Shown here one piece after another: positions 306 through 18,368 of a stretch of DNA of 19,076 nucleotides; positions within the stretch are counted from its first letter, which is position 1; the number at the start of each line of letters is the position of its first letter. The stretch covers positions 1-19,076 of the forward strand of contig JALLBK010000672.1 in assembly GCA_036940085.1 (NCBI GenBank). Direction: 5' to 3'. The notes under the pieces were generated by a model. The model saw nothing but the letters and a program-made list of their open reading frames with translations. It was not told the DNA's origin and made no database searches. A program made the position numbers and the translations under genes. The stretch is from Discostella pseudostelligera. Lineage: Eukaryota > Bacillariophyta > Thalassiosirophyceae > Thalassiosirales > Thalassiosiraceae.

Positions 306-2073
306 ATGAAGCTCTCCGCCGCCGCCGCCGTAGTTGTTCTATCAGGCTGTTTATCATACAACGTCTCCTCCTTTTCTCCATCATCTGGGAGCAGTCTCAC
401 TCGTACTTCTAGTATCAATAGCAGCAGTTCTTCACTCAATGTCTTCTCTCCGCCCGGATCCGCCGGCACCGGTGCCGGATGGATCGATCCCTCCGCACCC
501 GTAAACACCGCCGCCTCACTCCAAAAAACACTCTCCGAATCACTCAAGGGATCCACCTTCCAAAAACGTATCTCAATCTTAGGCTCTACGGGTAGTATCG
601 GCACACAAACACTGGATATTGTCGATGCCTGTCCACAAAACTTCGTCGTTGACGCCTTGAGTGCCGGGAACAATGCCCGTCTCATGGCAGAGCAAGTTAT
701 GAAATATAAACCACAGGTGGCTAGTCTTTCGACACCCGAGGCAGCGGAGGAGTTGAAATCAATTCTAGAGGAATTGAAATGTACCAATATGCCACGGATC
801 GTTCATGGACCCGAGGGGATTGTGGAGGCAGCGACAGTTTCGACTGCCGACACTGTGGTGACTGGAATTGTTGGCTCCGCAGGTCTACTGCCCACAATTG
901 AGGCAATTAAATGTGGAAAGGATATTGCCTTAGCCAACAAGGAGACATTAATTTCCGGTGGACCCGTCATTAATCCCCTAGTGGAAAAATATGGTATCAA
1001 CATGCTTCCCGCCGATAGTGAACACTCGGCCATATTCCAATGTTTGCAAGGCGTGCCACCGGGTGGATTGCGTCGTGTAATATTAACTGCCAGTGGTGGG
1101 GCATTTCGTGATTTAAGCAAGGAGGAATTGTTTGATATGTGTAAGAATGATCCACGGGCTGTGCAGAAGAAGGCGACTACACATCCTAATTGGGATATGG
1201 GGGCGAAGATTACGTTGGATAGTGCTACTATGATGAATAAGGGGTTGGAGGTACGTTGCGTTTTGATCTTTCGCACTTTGTTTGTGTGATGAGCAGAAGA
1301 AGATGATGATGAGTAAGAGGTGGAGGACTGCATCGCATATTTTCAATGACTTGGAGAATAGCGACGCCGTTGGATGTGTGCGACAACAATGAATTGATTT
1401 GATCGAAACCTCTTCAGTAGGATAGATCGATCCGCGGTCGAAAATCTCTTCTTGTTATTGCCCATCATCTTATCGTCTCTTTGTGGAACTAACTCACCGT
1501 TGATTCTGTTCCAATACCTCTCTCTGTGTGTAGGTCATTGAAGCGCACTACCTCTTTGGCGCAAGCTACGACGATATTGACATTGTCATCCATCCCCAAT
1601 CCATTGTACACTCCATGGTCGAGACGCAGGATACATCCTGCATTGCACAATTGGGATGGGCAGATATGCGCTTGCCCATTGTGTACAGCGTCTCATGGCC
1701 GCATCGACTCAAAATGCCATACAAACCATTGAATCTTGCTGAAATTGGTAGTTTGACATTCAAGGCTCCCGATCGGGAGAAGTACCCCTGTATACAGTTG
1801 GCATATGATGCTGGGCGTATGGGTGGTACCATGACGGCGGTTTTGAATGCCGCGAACGAAGCTGCGAATGAGATGTTCCGGGAGGATGTGGGTTTGGGAT
1901 TTCTGGACATTCCAAAGTTGATCGAAGGAGCGATGGAGGCGCACAAGGAGGATTTTAAGAATAAGGATGTCACGTTGGATGATATTTTGAGTTGTGATGC
2001 ATGGGCTAGGGAGTATGTTGCCGAAAAGACAAAGAATGTAGCCTCAAGCAGTGAGCCTATCTTGATAGTGTGA
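306..2073 (+). CDS. DXR: 1-deoxy-D-xylulose 5-phosphate reductoisomerase (DXR), plastid, two exons
   Basis: Converts 1-deoxy-D-xylulose 5-phosphate to 2-C-methyl-D-erythritol 4-phosphate with NADPH, the committed step of plastid MEP isoprenoid synthesis. Exons are 306-1250 and 1534-2073; the intron (1251-1533, 283 bp, GTACGT...GTGTAG) is phase 0 and gives 494 aa. The exon join restores [14 protein letters not shown], a DXR signature. Visible motifs: NADPH-binding GSTGSIG (residues 93-99), [21 protein letters not shown] (metal ligands D237 and E239 by family analogy), HPNWDMG, then MMNKGLE with the third ligand E315 as the last residue of exon 1. I chose ATG 306 because it begins a signal peptide ([14 protein letters not shown]) followed by VSS|FSPSS, an ASAF-like diatom plastid cleavage site. 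An in-frame ATG at 237 would bury that signal. Length is normal for the family plus presequence. The gene converges on the thioredoxin-fold gene to its right. Confidence 0.97.
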
Positions 2074-2391
2074 ACCGTGGGACACAACAACATTTTGGGA
2101 TTAAAGTGGCACGTTAAGGGATGGAATAAGATGTAAATTATTCGACAATTCGTATGATATGAGCAAATCTTCTTCGGTGTCACTGATTTTCATGACGAGT
2201 AGTTTAAGGTTTCGACAACAACAACATATGACTACCGATAATGGCAAGGCAAAAGATGCATTTGTTTTCAGTTGTCACAACTAATGATGCACCAAATCGC
2301 AAATCATTACTCGATCATTCACATAAACAAATGCTGTGTTGCTTTCCCATATCGGAGCATGCCAACAATGTGCCGCGTCGTCTGCTTCATC
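2074..2391. other. Convergent 3' region between DXR and the thioredoxin-fold gene
   Basis: This 318-bp stretch holds no gene. It contains both 3' UTRs and the SECIS-like fold at 2258-2334 (minus). Short open frames here lack family resemblance. Confidence 0.7.
2258..2334 (-). promoter_or_regulatory. Candidate SECIS element in the 3' UTR of the thioredoxin-fold gene
   Basis: Read on the minus strand, starting 58 nt after the TAG stop. GCATTTGTTT (2334-2325) pairs perfectly over 10 bp with AAACAAATGC (2267-2258) as helix I. After a 7-nt internal loop on each side comes an AUGA (2318-2315) facing UGA (2277-2275), giving the tandem G.A pairs of a SECIS core. Helix II follows: 2313-2303 pairs with 2288-2278 (11 steps, one G.G mismatch, one G.U). 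The apical loop is 14 nt (2302-2289). The usual unpaired AA or CC of the apical loop is absent, so this is non-canonical. A local AGTTG/CAACT hairpin (2282-2270) competes with the base of helix II. Found by eye; not scored by any program. Confidence 0.45.
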
Positions 2392-3447
2392 CTACCCCAA
2401 TGTTCCTGCCAGCTCTTCAAATATCTCCACAAAGGTACTCGAATCCTGCGCCCCCGAAAATCCATACGGTCTACCGACGCTTTCACCTCCCTGCACTGCT
2501 GATACAATAAAATATGGTACACCTTGGATATTGTAATGTCTCCTTCCCAATTGAATCTCCTTCATGACATCTTTGGCACCTGCGTTGGTTTCTAAATGAG
2601 AACGCAAANTGTCTCGTTCCCAATTGAATCTCCTTCATGACATCTTTGGCACCTGCGTTGGTTTCTAAATGAGAACGCAAATCCTGAACCTCCTCGTGGG
2701 TAATGCCCAATTTCTCAGTTCCAATTTTAACCAGCGTATCTGTCAATGAAACATTCTCTCCCCTCTCGTACATGGCCTCAAAGATGGCAGCATTGCATTC
2801 TGATGTGGTTGGTCTACTACTTACGTCGGGTCCTACTGCTGGTCTATTCGGGTTGGAGGTAATGTAGGCGATGAGCTGATGCGCCTTAAGAGTATTTGGC
2901 CATGTTTTCCAACTGTTGAAGTTGGCACCAACCTTTCGTCCGCTTCGTTTTAGGCCGTGTGTCCAACCAGAACTACCCCATCGACGGATATTGTAGCTCT
3001 CGAATTCTTCTCCCTCCGTTTTGGTGTTTGGATCGATTATGTATGGCTACGGTGATGTTGACGTAAAATAATGATGAGTGGAGGCGCTTGACAAAAAAGT
3101 ATGAATGAATATTATATCTAGAGTATGGCACATACCTTCCATTCCACATTGATATGCGGCCTCCCATCGGTAGCTGAAGACTGAAATGTGCTCACTGCAG
3201 CATTCAGCTTCTTTTGCCCGACGTAGCACCATGGTCAGGCGAGGTCGCTGAAGACAGTGACCGAAATATGCTTATTCACTGCCGATGGCGACACGGCAAA
3301 GGCAGAGGCGGTTGACATGGCTGCTGAGGGGGCTAATACGCGTCCGAAGACCCAGATTAAGAGCAATGTGGCGGTGGCGTAGGGGAGTGGTGGTGCCATT
3401 GCCATTGCCATCGCTATGGACGCCAACAAAATCCTTTTGTCTGTCAA
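2392..3447 (-). CDS. DsbA/FrnE-family thioredoxin-fold oxidoreductase, candidate selenoprotein (UPWC), plastid presequence
   Basis: DsbA-type thiol oxidoreductase of the FrnE branch. Exon 1 is 3447-3136, intron 3135-3047 (89 bp, GTATGT...GTAG, phase 0), exon 2 is 3046-2392. Exon 2 contains a 73-nt assembly artefact (72-bp duplicate plus N at 2609); removing it leaves 582 nt, exactly in frame, for a 297-aa protein ending at TAG. Residues 61-75 read ISVTVFSDLA-TGA-PWCY, so residue 71, the first Cys of the family CPWC motif, is encoded by TGA (3237-3235), with C74 normal. Downstream family features: VEWKPYIIDP across the splice, RRWGSSGWT, FNSWKTWPNT, KAHQLI, and the cis-Pro region IQGVPYFIV followed by YGFSGAQDS. 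The N-terminus has hydrophobic stretches and STASA|FAVSP (F50), an ASAF plastid motif. The alternative is a C-to-A change in a normal Cys gene; intact flanking frame and splice sites argue against decay. Confidence 0.88.
2537..2681. repeat. Assembly artefact: 72-bp direct duplicate around a single N
   Basis: Bases 2537-2608 and 2610-2681 are the same 72 bp apart from one mismatch (C at 2543, G at 2616), with the only N between them at 2609. It lies inside exon 2 of the thioredoxin-fold gene, where one copy codes the ETNAGAKDVMKEIQLG segment. Deleting one copy plus the N (73 nt) restores the open frame exactly. This looks like two overlapping contig ends placed side by side, not a biological repeat. 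Confidence 0.93.
3235..3237 (-). other. In-frame TGA, candidate selenocysteine codon (Sec71)
   Basis: On the minus strand the codons are GAC CTC GCC TGA CCA TGG TGC TAC, read as D-L-A-U-P-W-C-Y. The family has Cys at this position (CPWC), and TGA differs from TGC/TGT by one base. No GT-AG pair could splice it out, and the frame continues for more than 30 codons to a proper donor. Confidence 0.75.
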
Positions 3448-3748
3448 GCGAGGTCAAGCGTCAGGATTTTGAGCAAATAACTTCCACGTGGAGTTGGATG
3501 ATGAGAAAGTATTCCACATTGAGTCGAGATTCAATGACACGCTGACCATGAAGCTCAGGAGTTGGTATAGCAGCATCATTAGAAGCATGATGTTGATGTN
3601 GATTCAATGACACGCTGACCATGAAGCTCAGGAGTTGGTATAGCAGCATCATTAGAAGCATGATGTTGATGTGATGTTGGATCGGCTAAAGTTTACCCTA
3701 CGATCTGTATGATGCCTCTTTATGCCTATCGTACCATCTCACAATTCT
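3448..3748. other. Spacer with the upstream region of the thioredoxin-fold gene
   Basis: Contains the presumed promoter of the minus-strand thioredoxin-fold gene and the short 3' UTR of the HA-domain gene. Almost half of it is the 72-bp assembly duplicate. No gene is recognised. Confidence 0.6.
3528..3672. repeat. Assembly artefact: second 72-bp direct duplicate around a single N
   Basis: Bases 3528-3599 and 3601-3672 are identical over 72 bp with an N at 3600. The length and form match the first join, which points to an assembler overlap length. It lies in the spacer between two minus-strand genes, so no coding frame is affected; the true spacer is about 73 bp shorter. Confidence 0.93.
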
Positions 3749-5337
3749 TCACAGCGAAATAGGGTCAATGCCCGACGGAGGAGGATGCTCCTCCAATAAT
3801 CCAATAACTTGATGGTCTCCGATTTCCTCAATCGCTTCCTCATTGTGATAATGATACTCATCACTAAATGTGTGAACTTCCGACTGCTGTTGCTGTTGCC
3901 GTTGCTGCGCATGCTGCACTTGATCTATTAGTTGTTGGTCGTCCGACTCCACCGTCCTGCTTTTCTTTCCACGAGACCCCTCCCCTCCTGTACTCTTTCG
4001 CGGCTCCGACAGTGACTTGCGCCATTCCACACCCAATTCCGTTATCAATCGTATCTTCTCCTCGTCCAGTGAGCACGGATGTCCGGCTGCAAACATCAAT
4101 TGTTCCTTTCGTAAAAATGCCAAAAATAATGGTAACCGACGATAGACCTTCTTCGTGGGGACGCTAATCCCCTTCTTCCATTCCTTCTCTAATTTGTTGA
4201 CCTTGGTATGCCCATAGGTCTCTTTGAATGATACTAAATGATTGTACATGATGTCGAATTTGACGGTTTCATTGGATGTAGATCTGCCCTTAGTGTCCCA
4301 TATGAAGTTGATGGAGTCTAGTCTTTGTATTCGGTCGTCTGTCACTGTTTGTTTGAATCGAAATATCCGGACAGAATAAGTGAGACAGTGCATTCGAACT
4401 CTCCGTACCTCGACAGCAAAATAGCTTGACACTTACATTCCTGCTGCACAAGACCCTGTCGTTTATGACTCATGGCCGTCCGTAATCTAGAAACGAATTG
4501 TGCTAATTTCCTATTCTGCTTTTGGGTAATATTGAAATGTCCAAATTCGGCATGATACCGTCTCAATTCCTCAAAGTTGCTCTCCCATAATTGATCGGGA
4601 ACTGACCATACGAAACCAATCTAGTGTTCAGATTTAACAGAAATTTTTGTCAACGTGGTTAGAGAATAAACAATGCAAAATTGAAATCACACCACCGACG
4701 AATGCACGACGACACTCACCTTGTTCAATGCATCGACCCGATAATCCTTTATATGCTTCGTATCTCCATTCATAAAATATTTGTATGACGTTCGTTGATT
4801 TACCACCCACCGGTTCAACTTGATAATCTCCGAACTACTGCACTTGGTATCGCACGGCACCGTCGTGTCACCATCATGACTCTCCTTCCATTCAATTAAT
4901 TTGCGATACATGACATTCCATCGACATGGTTGTTGTAGCTGCTCTTCCATAATCTGTTGACGGTATCGTAATTTGAGATTTTCGACTTTGGCAACACTTT
5001 CGTCGTAGACTGATTTGGCCATGTCGTGTTGGCTCTGTGCGGCTTGCAGTATGGATGTAGCGGTAGTGAGATGAACGAGTGATTGTTGTTGATGGAGTTC
5101 TGCCTCGGCGAGATGGTGTTTGATAGTGCTGTAATAGACTGCCGTAGCTGTGGCGAGAGGTGGACGCACAGATGAAGTAGTATTCGAAGTCGAAGATTCG
5201 AAGTTCAAGTGATGATGATGTTGATGCAGCAGTTGCAGCACATGATCATGCTGCTTCGTCTCGGTGGCGGCGACGGCGTCGGCGGGTATCTCCATGGCCA
5301 TTATTTCCAACTCCAAATGGGGTAGATTAATTAGCAC
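3749..5337 (-). CDS. Helicase-associated (HA) domain protein, three exons
   Basis: Exons 5337-4720, 4620-4437 and 4344-3749; introns 4719-4621 (99 bp, GTGAGT...CTAG, phase 0) and 4436-4345 (92 bp, GTAAGT...ACAG, phase 1). Total 465 aa. Residues 65-135 form a Gln/His/Ala-rich likely coiled coil. Three HA-type modules follow: one in exon 1 (RWNVMYRKLIEWKESHDG, RWVVNQRTSYKYF, YRVDALNK-IGFVW), one mostly in exon 2 (WESNFEELRRYHAEFGHFNI to LTDDRIQRLDSINFIWD), and a third in exon 3 (FDIMYNHLVSFKETYGHTKV to KIRLITELGVEW). The C-terminus has a poly-Gln run and an acidic tail. HA modules are thought to bind nucleic acid; no helicase core is present here, as is common for free-standing diatom HA proteins. 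ATG 5337 could instead be one of the Mets at residues 13 or 15. It is head-to-head with the repeat protein at 5543. Confidence 0.85.
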
Positions 5338-8091: not shown

Positions 8092-9774
8092 ATGATGTTG
8101 TCTGGAATAAAGACAGGGAAGCGAAAGAGGCCAATCTCCTCCGGAGCCGTTGGCGCTCCTATTAGTGATCGTAGTGCCGCTGTTGCTCCAACTACGGCGG
8201 CGGCTGATGGTGCCGGCACTGGTACTGCTGCTGTTGCTGTTGGTGGTGGCGGCGGCAGTAACAGCAATCAATCTGCTGCCGAGGCACTGCGCAGGAGCCT
8301 CCAAGTTGACGACGGCAACAAATCCAAACAACATGACGAATTAGATATTCAATCCAATCTCCACGCTCGTGCAACTTCCTTCAAAAATAATGAAATGGTC
8401 GTCCAAGGCATGCAAAATCGTGGTAGAATCTCCAACGATGTTGTTACGGCGAAGTCACAGGCCGATTATGAAACAATTGTCATCCATTCCGACAGTGCTG
8501 CTATGGGAAATAAAAGAACCATCCAATATGAACATGAGCATAACATTCGATACAATTCAAAAGGGAAATTATCACGTCATGCCCATGATCAGCTACGACA
8601 AAAGTCAGAACAAGACATGACCATTAATGAAATGGTGGCACAAGAAAAACGACAGCATGCCAATGACAACAACAACATGGATGACAATTATTTGCGCAAT
8701 GTAATAAAGATGGGGAGCAAGGGATACAAAAAGCTCGAGAAGGCTATGGGTATCCATTCACGCTCGGGTGCCGATGAGGATGATTACTTGCAAGATGCAT
8801 CCACGTTGCACAACCTATATCGATCGAACGATGATAAATTATCTCCCGCAGAATTGGAAGCTCGATCCAAATCACGTCAGATTGCTCATCATGATACATT
8901 GTCCAAGTGGACTGCCAAGAGTTGGTGGTGGATGGAATCACCATCATTTGATAAGAAGTATTTGATTGCATTGGGAGAGAAGGTTAGTTTGGTCATGACC
9001 CCGTCGCATCGACGATTGCATCAGCCGCAGCAGAAATCTTCTTCCAGAAATGGTGGTAGTAGCAGCAGTGGTGGTGGTGGTGTGTGGGAGGGTAGACAAT
9101 GTTATATTGTACCGTTACCATACAGCGAATCCTTCGTTGCTTTGGATGAAGAAGTTTGGTATGAAGTGAAACGATTTCAAAGAGCATTGCGACAAATGTT
9201 TTTGAAGGAGGGGAGGGGTGTGATATTTCTCGAAACTGTCATGAGGACTACTCGCTCAGCGTCGGGAGGGGCCGGAAGTGGGGTGGGAGGAGGTACGGCA
9301 TTGCAAGCAATGATGGATGTTATTCCCGTACCACTCTCAGTGGAGCGTGATGCACCATTGTATTTCAGGAGCGCTTTGGCCGAGGTGGCACAGGAGTGGG
9401 GAACTCATGGCTTGAAACCCATTACGTTGGATGGGCAGAAGAAGACGTTACGGAACTCCGTTCCGAAGATGGGGTTTCCCTACTTTTACTGTGGATGGGG
9501 AGACGACGAGGGGTATGTCCAGCTGATTGAAAATGAGGATGATGGCGACGATGTCGGAGATGATGGAGGAGGTGGCGGTGGTGGCATGAGAGGAGGAGGT
9601 GGATCGAAACGCTTCTCAAGAGACTTTGGAATAGATATCATTGGAGGAATGATGGACTGTGATCCTATTCGATTTCAACGAAAGAGTCTATCGGGAGATG
9701 GAGATCGAAGCGAGTTAGTTCAGTTTTGTGAAAAATGGAAAGAGTTTGATTGGACGTTAGAATTGGATGAATAG
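8092..9774 (+). CDS. CWF19/CwfJ-like splicing factor homologue (CWF19L2 type) lacking the Cys/His ligands
   Basis: 560 aa, single exon. The N-terminal ~265 residues are low complexity (Ala/Gly/Asn/Gln rich) with a basic helix NYLRNVIKMGSKGYKKLEKA. The CwfJ C-terminal domain 1 spans about 270-385: SPSFDKKYLIALGEKVSLVM, QCYIVPL, LDEEVWYEVKRFQRAL, GVIFLETVM. Domain 2 spans about 405-556: DVIPVPLS, APLYFRSALAEVAQEW, RNSVPKMGFPYF, GYVQLIE, FGIDIIGGMMD, WKEFDWT. This family works with the spliceosome or lariat-debranching machinery. The family's CxxC before the first strand and the His in GHC and PLxH are here S/W, RQC and PLPY, so the zinc/HIT-like centre is gone. Three Gly-rich insertions (about 320-331, 391-401, 491-504) lengthen the domains. 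Start may be the first or second of two adjacent ATGs. Confidence 0.9.
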   Translation: MMLSGIKTGKRKRPISSGAVGAPISDRSAAVAPTTAAADGAGTGTAAVAVGGGGGSNSNQSAAEALRRSLQVDDGNKSKQHDELDIQSNLHARATSFKNNEMVVQGMQNRGRISNDVVTAKSQADYETIVIHSDSAAMGNKRTIQYEHEHNIRYNSKGKLSRHAHDQLRQKSEQDMTINEMVAQEKRQHANDNNNMDDNYLRNVIKMGSKGYKKLEKAMGIHSRSGADEDDYLQDASTLHNLYRSNDDKLSPAELEARSKSRQIAHHDTLSKWTAKSWWWMESPSFDKKYLIALGEKVSLVMTPSHRRLHQPQQKSSSRNGGSSSSGGGGVWEGRQCYIVPLPYSESFVALDEEVWYEVKRFQRALRQMFLKEGRGVIFLETVMRTTRSASGGAGSGVGGGTALQAMMDVIPVPLSVERDAPLYFRSALAEVAQEWGTHGLKPITLDGQKKTLRNSVPKMGFPYFYCGWGDDEGYVQLIENEDDGDDVGDDGGGGGGGMRGGGGSKRFSRDFGIDIIGGMMDCDPIRFQRKSLSGDGDRSELVQFCEKWKEFDWTLELDE

Positions 9775-13042: not shown

Positions 13043-15589
13043 TTACTTGTTGGGTGCGCCCTGAATTCGGACAGTCGTGATGCCTTGCTCTGTCCACGCC
13101 AGGAAAGACGATGCCGCTCGAAGAACCAAATTCTTGAACACATCGATCAAACCACCATTCTCAACCATCGCACGGTATGAATTCATGCGATGCTGGGGAG
13201 AAGGACCGCCAAAGAAACTCCACAACCCCATCGGTCTATGGTAGTTTATCAGCTTCATCACCCTTGCTCCGTGCCGCATTCTTTCGGAGATGTACTCATC
13301 GCTTGTAATGAGTCGATCGACCAATCCAAGTTTGATAGCCTGGACTCCGAGGAAGACATCGCCAGTTGCTACTTGATCCATGATATGTTCCGTATTTGAT
13401 TCATCACCATCATTATCACTCGCACCAAGTTGAAAGTACTTTCCCGCTTGCTTTGGGAAAGCACCAGACAGTACAGCTTCGGCGAAAGCCTCCTTCCTTG
13501 CTAATGCCACGTGATCACGAAATGCGTCGTGGATTCGATCGACCATGAGCTGCATTGCAATTACACCCTCCTTTGTTACATCCCCGATCATGCCCACTGG
13601 ATTCTTCATTTTCCCGCCACGAAACACGTAAGGACGAATCCCATACCCTTCCAGAGTTTTTTGCACATTGAGAGATTGGCCGATTACACCTATTGAACCA
13701 ACCATCGCAAACGGTGCACAATATAATTGACCGGGAGAGGACATGCATGCCATCATATACCCTCCAGATGCAGCAATGGAATCGATGCATATTGTCAGTT
13801 TGACGTTTGGATTAGACCGCAGACGTTGGAGATGGGATGCAGCGAGTCCATATTGTGATACACCTCCGCCCGGAGACTCCAGGAGTACAATTACCTCCAC
13901 GACTGGTTCGGGTGTTGCTGGTGTAGAATTCGGTTGAGTGGCATTACTAAGGCGGTCGACGATGTCCGTGCTGTCTGTGACTGTTGCATCTGGCGTAGTT
14001 GCGTTTGTTCCATTCATTGAAAGGTCTCCACCACTTCCTTGTTCATTGTTAGATGGTGTGCTTTCTTCCGTGAAGGCCAAATAATGAGTAATGAAGTTAA
14101 TCTGATCCCGAATGCTCTCCATTCTAGATGCCTGAGTATCAAGCTTCGTCATATCCAGTATTATCACTGTCCCATTATTGTATTCACTTGGATAACAATT
14201 CGTTGGACTTGGCAATGTACTTTTCTTGTCAGAAGCCGATGGAGCCTGTGCTGGCAATGGTGACTTGCGCGATGATGTTATCAGTGAGACCAATGACGCC
14301 ACACCACCACCAGAATTGTTCGATGTCCAATGACCACCTCCCCCGGTGGAAGCTCCTGTCGCTGCAGATACCATGGAATGAGTATCCAATGCCTTTCGAT
14401 ACGCACCCCAATCTCGAAAGTATCGTTCATTTAATAGTTCAAATGTGTAATGCTGTTCCAACGGTGGCAAATATGCCATTCGCTTTGCCAAGTCGGAATC
14501 TCCCCGTCCAAAGAGTAGGAAGAGGAGGTTCCCCATGGGACTGTCAGGGTCGGGTGGCATCCCACCTCCTCCACTACTTGTTACTCCTAGTAGTATGCGT
14601 AGGAGCATGGGTAGGATAAAATAGGATATATTCCGTGGCAGGAGAAGGAAGATTGAGAGAAGTATCAGCAGTGGAAGAATGGAAGGAGTGCGATGTCGTT
14701 TCGATAGTGGGGTTGATTGCTTCTGATCCAACGATTTGGTTGCATTCTGATTCTTTGTCATGTCATCCCTCTTTCCATTGTCATCATTCGATAAGGCAAT
14801 TGAGTTGACAGTATCATCATGAGCACGTGATGGTAAAAAGTATCTCCGTACAACCTCGACAACCAATATAAGTTTGGGAACATCTGTTGACCAATTGATC
14901 TTAATTTTTCGTTGGGATGTGATGGGATCCACTACTGTTGGAATAAGATGATAGTGACATGCCAACTCGAAAATATCTGACCGAAAGGCTATAATTGCTA
15001 GTAGTATGTAGGCGTGGACTTGATGTTGCCTGGCAAATTGCATGATACGTTTGTTGATGCTACTTTTGTGGGATTTGGAGCTTGGGTGCTCAGTTGTGGA
15101 TTTGCGACTTCGAAGAATTCTTGAATTGCCACTTTTGGGATTGTGTGATGTCGGTTTGGCATCTAGCGATGAATTAATCTCATCAGCGTTTTCTGGGTTG
15201 ACTTCGTCAACACTTTCATCGTCTTCATCGCTGCTGCTGTCGGTGTCAGCCCCATCATCATTGCGACTACGAAGATCTACGTCAGCGGCAGCGACATCAT
15301 AATCGGGATTTTCCTCAATACCACTCCCACTTCCTCCACCACGAATCCTTGAAAGAATGATGGTGGCATCGTAATGCGTAGGTAATGGCACAGCCTCACT
15401 TCTTGCGCGGCGACGTCGGCGGGGTACAAATAATTCTCTGCCCATCAGAAGTGATGCAGCCGCATCAACACCCCTGCCGCTGCCGCTGCCTCCATCGCCG
15501 AACTCAATGCCAAGTTTCGCATCGACAGGAGCTATTAGCAGATAGGCGGCCAATAGGAGCAATAAGTAGGCCGGCATTATTCCCATCAT
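13043..15589 (-). CDS. S49-family serine protease (SohB/SppA-like), membrane-anchored
   Basis: 848 aa, single exon. A signal peptide (MMGIMPAYLLLLLAAYLL, cleavage about VDA|K at 24) is followed by a long acidic Ser/Asp-rich region (90-145). Hydrophobic segments lie near 191-215, 238-250 and 303-337, so it is probably membrane-bound in the secretory or plastid envelope system. The protease domain spans about 470-775: VIILDM, VEVIVLLESPGGGVSQYGLA, the nucleophile region CIDSIAASGGYMMAC with Ser608, APFAMVGSIGVIGQ, and FRGGKMKNP where K660 or K662 should be the general base, then QVATGDVFLGVQAIKLGLVD. The GYGLAAS/ASGGYMMAC wording is closer to SohB than to SppA. A SohB domain is ~300 residues, so the first ~450 are a lineage-specific extension. 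No ASAF motif is seen, so plastid import is not supported. It shares a divergent promoter with the cupin gene. Confidence 0.92.
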   Translation of the reverse strand: MMGIMPAYLLLLLAAYLLIAPVDAKLGIEFGDGGSGSGRGVDAAASLLMGRELFVPRRRRRARSEAVPLPTHYDATIILSRIRGGGSGSGIEENPDYDVAAADVDLRSRNDDGADTDSSSDEDDESVDEVNPENADEINSSLDAKPTSHNPKSGNSRILRSRKSTTEHPSSKSHKSSINKRIMQFARQHQVHAYILLAIIAFRSDIFELACHYHLIPTVVDPITSQRKIKINWSTDVPKLILVVEVVRRYFLPSRAHDDTVNSIALSNDDNGKRDDMTKNQNATKSLDQKQSTPLSKRHRTPSILPLLILLSIFLLLPRNISYFILPMLLRILLGVTSSGGGGMPPDPDSPMGNLLFLLFGRGDSDLAKRMAYLPPLEQHYTFELLNERYFRDWGAYRKALDTHSMVSAATGASTGGGGHWTSNNSGGGVASLVSLITSSRKSPLPAQAPSASDKKSTLPSPTNCYPSEYNNGTVIILDMTKLDTQASRMESIRDQINFITHYLAFTEESTPSNNEQGSGGDLSMNGTNATTPDATVTDSTDIVDRLSNATQPNSTPATPEPVVEVIVLLESPGGGVSQYGLAASHLQRLRSNPNVKLTICIDSIAASGGYMMACMSSPGQLYCAPFAMVGSIGVIGQSLNVQKTLEGYGIRPYVFRGGKMKNPVGMIGDVTKEGVIAMQLMVDRIHDAFRDHVALARKEAFAEAVLSGAFPKQAGKYFQLGASDNDGDESNTEHIMDQVATGDVFLGVQAIKLGLVDRLITSDEYISERMRHGARVMKLINYHRPMGLWSFFGGPSPQHRMNSYRAMVENGGLIDVFKNLVLRAASSFLAWTEQGITTVRIQGAPNK

Positions 15590-17037: not shown

Positions 17038-18368
17038 CTATCCGCCATTCAACGTGTCCAACACAAACTCGTACGTTACAAAGGTGATGGCCGCACTTGG
17101 TGCCACTCGTATCGCATTCGTTACACAGCCTTTGAAAAATCCATATGTTCCTTCATTCTTGTATATCTTCCCTATGCAATCTATTACTCCGGAATATTCA
17201 CGTTTTGTAATGATTATTTCTCCTGTCGCCTCGGACACCTCTATCGCCTGTGATCGTTGTTGGAGTCGAGCTTTGATGACCTGGAGTGGATATGTTGTTG
17301 TGCTTGCAACACTGAATGAAATATTAGGTCTTTAGAGTGGTGAACGATTTCTGGAAAGAGTAATAGAGCAACATCCACTTACAATTTCGACATGGCTCCC
17401 ATTACCAGATATCCCAACGAGTCCTGAAACCTCTCTCCGATTGTCAACTCTCTTCGTTCCTGGTGTTCGCTCTCTCTATTCTTCTTTCCATTGCTCATAA
17501 AGGTTGCAAAGTGTCCTTTCAGGAACTCATATGTCACGAATTGTATCCCACCGTGAGAGACGAGCATTAATGCCGGCACACTACCCTTGTACAATGCCAA
17601 TATTCCTTCCTCTTGTACTATTGTGTAGGCAGCATGAAACAGACCTCTGTACGCTGGTTTTACTTTCTGTTGCGCTTGATTTTGAGGTATGGATATTTGA
17701 TTTTGTAGCCGTGAATTTTGAAGCTGCAATCTTGTCTTAATTAGCCACAGTGGATTCGTCAACGCAACCATGCATGCACCTGCGAGGCAGGAAGCCCCAA
17801 AGTGATCTATCGGGCCGAGTCTCAGTTGCTGTTGATCTTTTGCCTCCGATGGAATTAATGTTACTTCAGAATTAATTCCCATCTTTCTTTTTGTCAATAA
17901 ATGGCTATTTGAACTTGCCTGTTTCTTGAGTAGCAGCATTTGCTTCTTAATCTCCTCATACAAAATGAAAAATCCACCCCAGCTCGCTGCTGATCCAATA
18001 ATGGCGGGAGATAGACCTCGATATAGGCCAATGTAGCCCTCATGACGTATCACTCCCCTGACAGTAGTGCAAATTGTCCGCGGTCTATCTATTGAATTAT
18101 TTGATGGTGAATGGTTGTGGTGCGCAGTATTAGATGATGATCCGTCCAGAGCAGAGTTGTTGCTGCGTGGCCGTTCGTCGACCTGCATCCGTACTTTGAT
18201 GAGATCTAATGGATACAATAAAATGGTCGACGCCGATCCGCCAGCAATGCCAGCGAGAAAGGAGGAGATGGGAGAAGTAGCCCTTGCGCTCGACGGCTTC
18301 TGCTGTGAACATTGTTGAGCTGAGGACGGCGTTGCCGCGGTTGCTGTGTCCGTCATGGTCATTGTCAT
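17038..18368 (-). CDS. Mitochondrial carrier family protein (folate/FAD/pyrimidine-nucleotide-like), two exons
   Basis: Exon 1 is 18368-17383, intron 17382-17312 (71 bp, GTAAGT...TCAG, phase 2), exon 2 is 17311-17038; 419 aa. The join reads AMSK-F-VASTTTYPLQ. Three carrier repeats each carry a signature: YPLDLIKVRMQ (52-62), NPLWLIKTRLQLQ (205-217) and YPLQVIKARLQ (336-346), followed by GLYRGLSPAIIG, ALYKGSVPALML and FFKGCVTNAIRVAP. Tryptophan-containing NPLW and SWGGFFILYEE suggest the SLC25A32/FLX1/RIM2 group that moves folate, FAD or pyrimidine nucleotides across the inner mitochondrial membrane; the exact substrate is not decidable by eye. Insertions of ~40 residues in loops (64-100, 145-185) are typical of diatoms. 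The Thr-rich start offers three in-frame ATGs at 18368, 18362 and 18356. Upstream lies an E2F-like palindrome. Confidence 0.93.

Follow-up and report, generated by a model that had tools for sequence, protein, structure and literature searches.

Proteins of the DsbA family that contain selenocysteine (Sec) are already known from eukaryotic algae. According to the main text of a survey that covered four diatoms, with 20–44 selenoprotein genes, DsbA is among the most widely distributed of the algal selenoprotein families (PMC7539508). The words chloroplast, subcellular, and signal peptide, and the stem localiz-, never occur in that main text. Sec-FrnE has been described in algae as well, but in the green lineage (Mamiellophyceae and M. 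viride; PMC6627142). The main text of that report does not contain "chloroplast", and its three passages with "plastid" are unrelated to FrnE. As presented in the main text of PMC2398784, the GOS marine metagenome set includes DsbA selenoproteins with UxxC (DsbA 1 and DsbA 2) or UxxV (DsbA 3), where U is Sec. The diatom protein that we describe here resembles this set by motif and domain: they share UxxC within Pfam's DSBA. Among titles and starts of abstracts in the open-licence literature, we found no plastid Sec-DsbA, and a search of that literature for diatom DsbA selenoproteins gave nothing besides PMC7539508. The diatom gene is an addition to the published algal DsbA selenoprotein family, and its presumed plastid address and the loop of its candidate SECIS set it apart.

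We analyzed a stretch of 19,076 nucleotides from Discostella pseudostelligera (the window). Judging from its sequence and that of its relatives, a gene on the minus strand very probably encodes a Sec-containing thiol-disulfide oxidoreductase of the DsbA/FrnE type in this centric diatom, with the UGA at codon 59 recoded. Exon 1 (3136..3411, minus) begins with ATG at 3411-3409 and encodes the presequence and the active site; it is supported by the match of the joined reading frame to Pfam's DSBA. An 89-nt GT..AG intron (3047..3135, minus) separates it from exon 2 (2392..3046, minus), which ends with TAG at 2394-2392. The in-frame TGA at 3235..3237 (minus) is flanked by VTVFSDLA and PWCYVGQKKL and takes the position of the first Cys of CPWC, so that the active-site motif (3226..3237, minus) would be U-P-W-C; both the corresponding column in the homologues and the end of the related protein P0121 point to Sec at this codon. 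The cis-Pro loop GVPYF lies at 2509..2523 (minus).

Within exon 2, a 72-nt direct repeat (2537..2681, minus) breaks the frame. Because the two copies (2537-2608 and 2610-2681) share 99% identity and a single N (2609) joins them, we read the repeat as an assembly artifact. A second 72-nt/N duplicate, at 3528-3672 and upstream of the DsbA gene, we likewise read as an artifact of an assembly joint. With one copy of the frame-breaking repeat removed, the spliced frame has 285 codons, of which 58 precede the TGA and 226 follow it.

A sequence-only reading of this DNA had already proposed a TGA between SDLA and PWCYVG, normal splicing, an assembly duplicate, and the motifs GVPYF and SGAQ, and all of these are present. 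It also had the frame open for more than 220 codons after the TGA, which holds, and for 70 codons before it, which counts from a TTG at 3447. From the first ATG (3411), the TGA is codon 59 and not residue 71.

With Cys put at the TGA, the protein matches Pfam's DSBA (PF01323) with E = 4.1e-17 and 63 bits, as compared to a curated cut-off of 25.6 bits. The match covers residues 51-275, so the homology spans the TGA. The protein has the active site and the cis-Pro loop of DsbA/FrnE proteins, as UPWC (with Sec inferred) and GVPYF. In a search of NCBIfam, there was no family at E ≤ 1. By sequence, its relatives of known structure are FrnE from Deinococcus, which is the best match, and a DsbA oxidoreductase from Streptomyces. 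CPWC of Deinococcus radiodurans FrnE (PDB 5cnw and relatives) aligns residue by residue with the diatom protein; the bacterial protein has Cys at the first position, where we read Sec in the diatom. As a stand-in for the fold of the window protein, we used the AlphaFold model of P0073, a homologue with Cys (mean pLDDT of 93.8). The five best Foldseek matches to this model are D. radiodurans FrnE entries (TM 0.77-0.79) and the sixth is 3gl5 from Streptomyces. The model thus predicts a thioredoxin-type fold with a FrnE-like helical insert. Together, these results bear out the DsbA/FrnE membership that was proposed from the sequence.

If the TGA encodes Sec, then relatives should have Cys or TGA at this column, as the sequence-only reading had pointed out. 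We examined 120 listed homologues out of 212 above the threshold (the 120 include the window's own deposited protein, P0001) and placed the start of each on the query; these relatives are known from their protein sequences. Three of the 120 have Cys at the column (P0073 from Cylindrotheca fusiformis, P0086, and P0111). Another three (P0067, P0077, and P0120) have Trp, which we infer to be TGA that was translated under a code in which TGA is Trp. Another 24 of the listed homologues begin at query residues 62-75, and 17 of these begin exactly at Val64 of PWCYVG, which is five residues past codon 59; a GTG start just past a stop would place starts there. In four more, an unrelated lead is followed by CYVGQ or CYVAQ, and the other three are P0002, which skips the stretch, and P0068 and P0095, which have unrelated leads. 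We did not count the remaining 83 of the 120 as evidence, because they start later (25 in exon 1, including P0001, and 58 in exon 2) and introns can explain such starts. In these relatives, then, TGA is deduced from the ends of open reading frames and from the Trp calls. The residues on both sides of the TGA are conserved, and the upstream coding sequence is kept in P0067, P0073, P0077, P0086, P0111, and P0120.

In a phylogenetic tree of the window protein and 42 of the 120 listed homologues, P0067 (with Trp) is sister to P0089 (with a start at Val64), with support of 100/99 and short branches, so the two kinds of protein are very probably the same gene. The Cys forms are in two places in the tree, which suggests repeated exchange between Sec and Cys, although few of the rows are resolved. 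We also sought relatives of the gene in collections of viral and genome contigs and found none there.

Could the TGA be an error of sequencing or assembly, with TGC or TGT as the real codon and an ordinary CPWC enzyme as the product? There are two clear assembly artifacts near the gene, and relatives with Cys exist, but we consider an error to be very improbable. When we used the 58 residues before the TGA as the query, a single protein was matched, P0121 (JGI), which is identical from MAPP to SDLA and ends at SDLA. P0121 is from other contigs (at most 1,366 bases, and presumably metagenomic) and has a different upstream start. Because it ends at the same codon, an error in the Discostella assembly is unlikely. 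The 17 starts at Val64 and the three Trp calls among the 120 listed homologues also argue against an error.

More improbable still is that the TGA arose recently by a mutation that disabled the gene, leaving a pseudogene. An in-frame stop and a deposited annotation that avoids it (P0001) would both fit with this, but both flanks are in an intact frame with conserved motifs, and the same interruption is implied for other diatoms. We give just as little credence to the deposited model itself, in which the start is downstream of the TGA and the shorter protein has no active site. P0001 (ACHAXH_004223 from Discostella pseudostelligera) is the NCBI protein that matches the DsbA gene; it has 218 amino acids and reads MVLRRAKEAECC and then TTDGRPH. 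Its first 12 residues are off-frame and need a splice within exon 1, it retains neither PWC nor the first strand, and it leaves out the upstream coding sequence that is conserved in the six homologues named above. The conserved flanks, the relatives with Cys or apparent TGA, and P0121 all strongly support Sec in a DsbA/FrnE enzyme. Because the Sec codon was taken for a stop, three NCBI models have lost or broken the active site of what seems to be a genuine selenoenzyme: P0001 from Discostella pseudostelligera, P0002 from Skeletonema marinoi, and P0011 from Thalassiosira exigua, which is flagged as low quality.

The Discostella genome encodes components of the Sec machinery. Our search covered tRNA-Sec, SepSecS, and SPS2. 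We found a tRNA-Sec (77.9 bits), which ARAGORN names tRNA-SeC with anticodon TCA (UCA in RNA letters), as well as matches to SepSecS (E = 9e-97) and to SPS2 (E = 6e-61). The SPS2 match has one inner TGA, in LKG-TGA-ACKL.

Seven other genes from known families have TGA at a catalytic position (their codons were checked): SelT (FCTS-TGA; G000:C686), GPx (NVACE-TGA-GLTHSNY), SelM (SCSG-TGA), SelW (YCGG-TGA-GYG; G000:C41, about 1296, minus), MsrA (ASG-TGA-FWHPQ, which precedes the matched stretch; G000:C32, 1354-1990), and two DsbA-type genes. In SelT, SelW, SelM, GPx, MsrA, and SPS2, we take the TGA residues to be the catalytic ones. The two DsbA-type genes are on C722 (SDTI-TGA-PWCYIGKRRLE, across an intron; G000:C722, 1551) and C23 (SDTL-TGA-PN; G000:C23, 2431), and both appear to have TGA at the first active-site Cys, with the splice joins placed by reading. 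With SPS2 and the window gene, this gives nine TGA genes from six family searches. The same searches also gave members without inner stops: one match for Rdx, three for GPx, and five for MsrA. The genome search with PF01323 gave three matches, and the window's own gene was absent from them, so such searches miss genes. The Sec machinery and the other Sec genes give further backing to the Sec reading, as does a 3' UTR element with the shape of a SECIS.

This candidate SECIS (2258..2334, minus) begins 58 nt past the stop codon. Its helix I is formed by GCATTTGTTT and AAACAAATGC, which pair perfectly over 10 bp (2334-2325 with 2267-2258). Next come ATGTGA-ATGA (with ATGA at 2318-2315) and helix II (3 + 7 bp, one mismatch), which is capped by a loop of 14 nt. 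A TGA lies on the opposite side (2277-2275). The hairpin has the topology of a SECIS, with an NTGA/GA core and two helices. The apical loop, UUGCGAUUUGGUGC, does not contain AA/CC. The minimum-energy fold gives the SECIS arrangement, and its energy is unremarkable (z = -1.49; 21 of 200 shuffles are as stable).

We scanned for helix I, the NTGA/GA core, and helix II, using criteria that were set after the candidate had been seen, and among the 34 hits that the two strands of the window gave, the candidate scored highest (44 vs. 34). Just 2 of 3,000 dinucleotide shuffles of the 319-nt UTR reached a score of 44. Among 20 stretches of 10 kb that we sampled from the genome (200 kb, both strands), none reached 44 and nine reached at least 39, so scores of 39-42 are by themselves unspecific. 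We also scanned a pool of 172,722 nt (both strands) that comprises the window and the fetched loci and is enriched in Sec genes. The top places in this pool are the 3' flanks of the DSBA gene on C23 (50), the window gene (44), MsrA (41), and SelW (39, a score shared by one place outside such flanks). The C23, MsrA, and SelW elements were detected after the criteria were fixed; the MsrA and SelW elements are about 90 nt and about 150 nt past their stop codons. The scores for GPx (35), SelT (33, two elements), and SelM (32) are no better than those of chance places, and in C722 the scan gives no element, with one visible by eye only.

The core GTGAATGA is common to the window candidate, both SelT elements, and SelM; it is absent from the others, and it also occurs at three other places in the loci. 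The 3' UTR of SelT (G000:C686, 2140-2307) has two tandem SECIS-like elements, both with GTGAATGACGAGA and CATCTTTGAAA. Downstream of the SelW gene is a long, stable hairpin with the shape of a SECIS, whose apical loop likewise has no 5' AA/CC. Seven SECIS candidates could be aligned only poorly by sequence, too poorly for a covariance model.

Rfam's SECIS_1 model gave no match in positions 1700-3700 of the window, and none in the genome at E ≤ 10. As a control, we ran it on three Sec loci, and it gave SelT 20.4 bits (E = 4.9) and GPx and SelM nothing. Because it matched just one of the three control loci, SECIS_1 is nearly blind here, and we do not count its silence against the candidate. A strict AA/CC hairpin finder found the GPx element and missed both SelT elements. 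It also gave a candidate in the window, antisense inside the DXP reductoisomerase gene (DXR), which we ruled out because of its place, its TTGA quartet, and its 4-bp helix I.

An early SECIS filter demands an unpaired AA or CC at 10-13 nt from the NTGA quartet, as described in PMC2375036, and the window candidate does not have this canonical feature. In the passage of that paper that lists the selenoproteins of Thalassiosira pseudonana, no DsbA is named; our guess is that the AA/CC filter could explain this absence. If a SECIS without AA/CC is functional, then looser SECIS filters are needed for diatoms.

We propose that the UGA at codon 59 would be decoded as Sec by the nuclear machinery, given that tRNA-Sec (UCA), SepSecS, and SPS2 were found, with the hairpin at 2334-2258 acting as the putative SECIS that directs the recoding. 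Sec59 would replace the attacking N-terminal residue of CPWC and, by analogy to the family, may form a selenenylsulfide with Cys62 during disulfide exchange with client proteins.

The presequence (3298..3411, minus) has a hydrophobic, signal-peptide-like stretch, LLLIWVFGRVLA, followed by ASAF at residues 35-38, and is a candidate bipartite plastid address. An ASAF-type motif after a signal peptide is the rule for plastid addresses in diatoms. From hydropathy, with a peak of 2.24, and from the motif, both in residues 1-38, it seems somewhat likely that the presequence sends the enzyme to the plastid. The sequence-only reading had made the same claim: the ASAF-type presequence that it named is present, and the plastid itself is a motif-level prediction. 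Alternatively, and with a fair claim of its own although we favor it less, the Sec enzyme might be in the ER or secretory pathway, or in the cytosol if translation begins at Met32, which would remove the signal peptide. The Skeletonema marinoi model, P0002, has no Phe motif, and P0067, P0073, and P0077 begin near the mature domain, as might be expected for a non-plastid enzyme. On the other hand, ASAF lies behind the hydrophobic stretch, and the presequence of P0121 is identical, including ASAF; in P0120, one of the Trp forms, a hydrophobic stretch is present together with VKAF; and CSAF occurs in the Sec-MsrA of the Discostella genome. The Sec-MsrA has a signal-peptide-like start with ATCSAF and is a second candidate plastid selenoprotein.

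A plastid selenoprotein had been called unusual, which was too strong: Chlamydomonas has a nuclear-encoded, chloroplast-targeted Sec-GPx, although that is a different family and a primary plastid, as described in the text of PMC3095285. If the plastid address of the Discostella enzyme is true, then selenium would take a role in the disulfide chemistry of a secondary plastid. We tentatively speculate that diatoms may have a set of plastid selenoenzymes that includes the Sec-DsbA and the Sec-MsrA of this genome, each with a SAF-type presequence, and that the Sec-DsbA, which would depend on a SECIS without AA/CC, would escape AA/CC searches and be mis-modelled by gene callers.

Discostella is a freshwater genus. 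The main text of PMC7539508 places its selenium-rich algae only in seawater; nine TGA genes were found in this diatom.

The window also contains other genes. DXP reductoisomerase, of the plastid isoprenoid pathway, has two exons (306-2073, plus; identified with Pfam) and is convergent with the selenoprotein gene. At 3749-5337 (minus), two stretches each match one helicase-associated (HA) domain in Pfam and are probably one gene that is split by introns. Further along are a CwfJ-like protein (8092-9774, plus), a Peptidase S49 protein of 848 amino acids (13043-15589, minus), and a mitochondrial carrier (17379-18368, minus).
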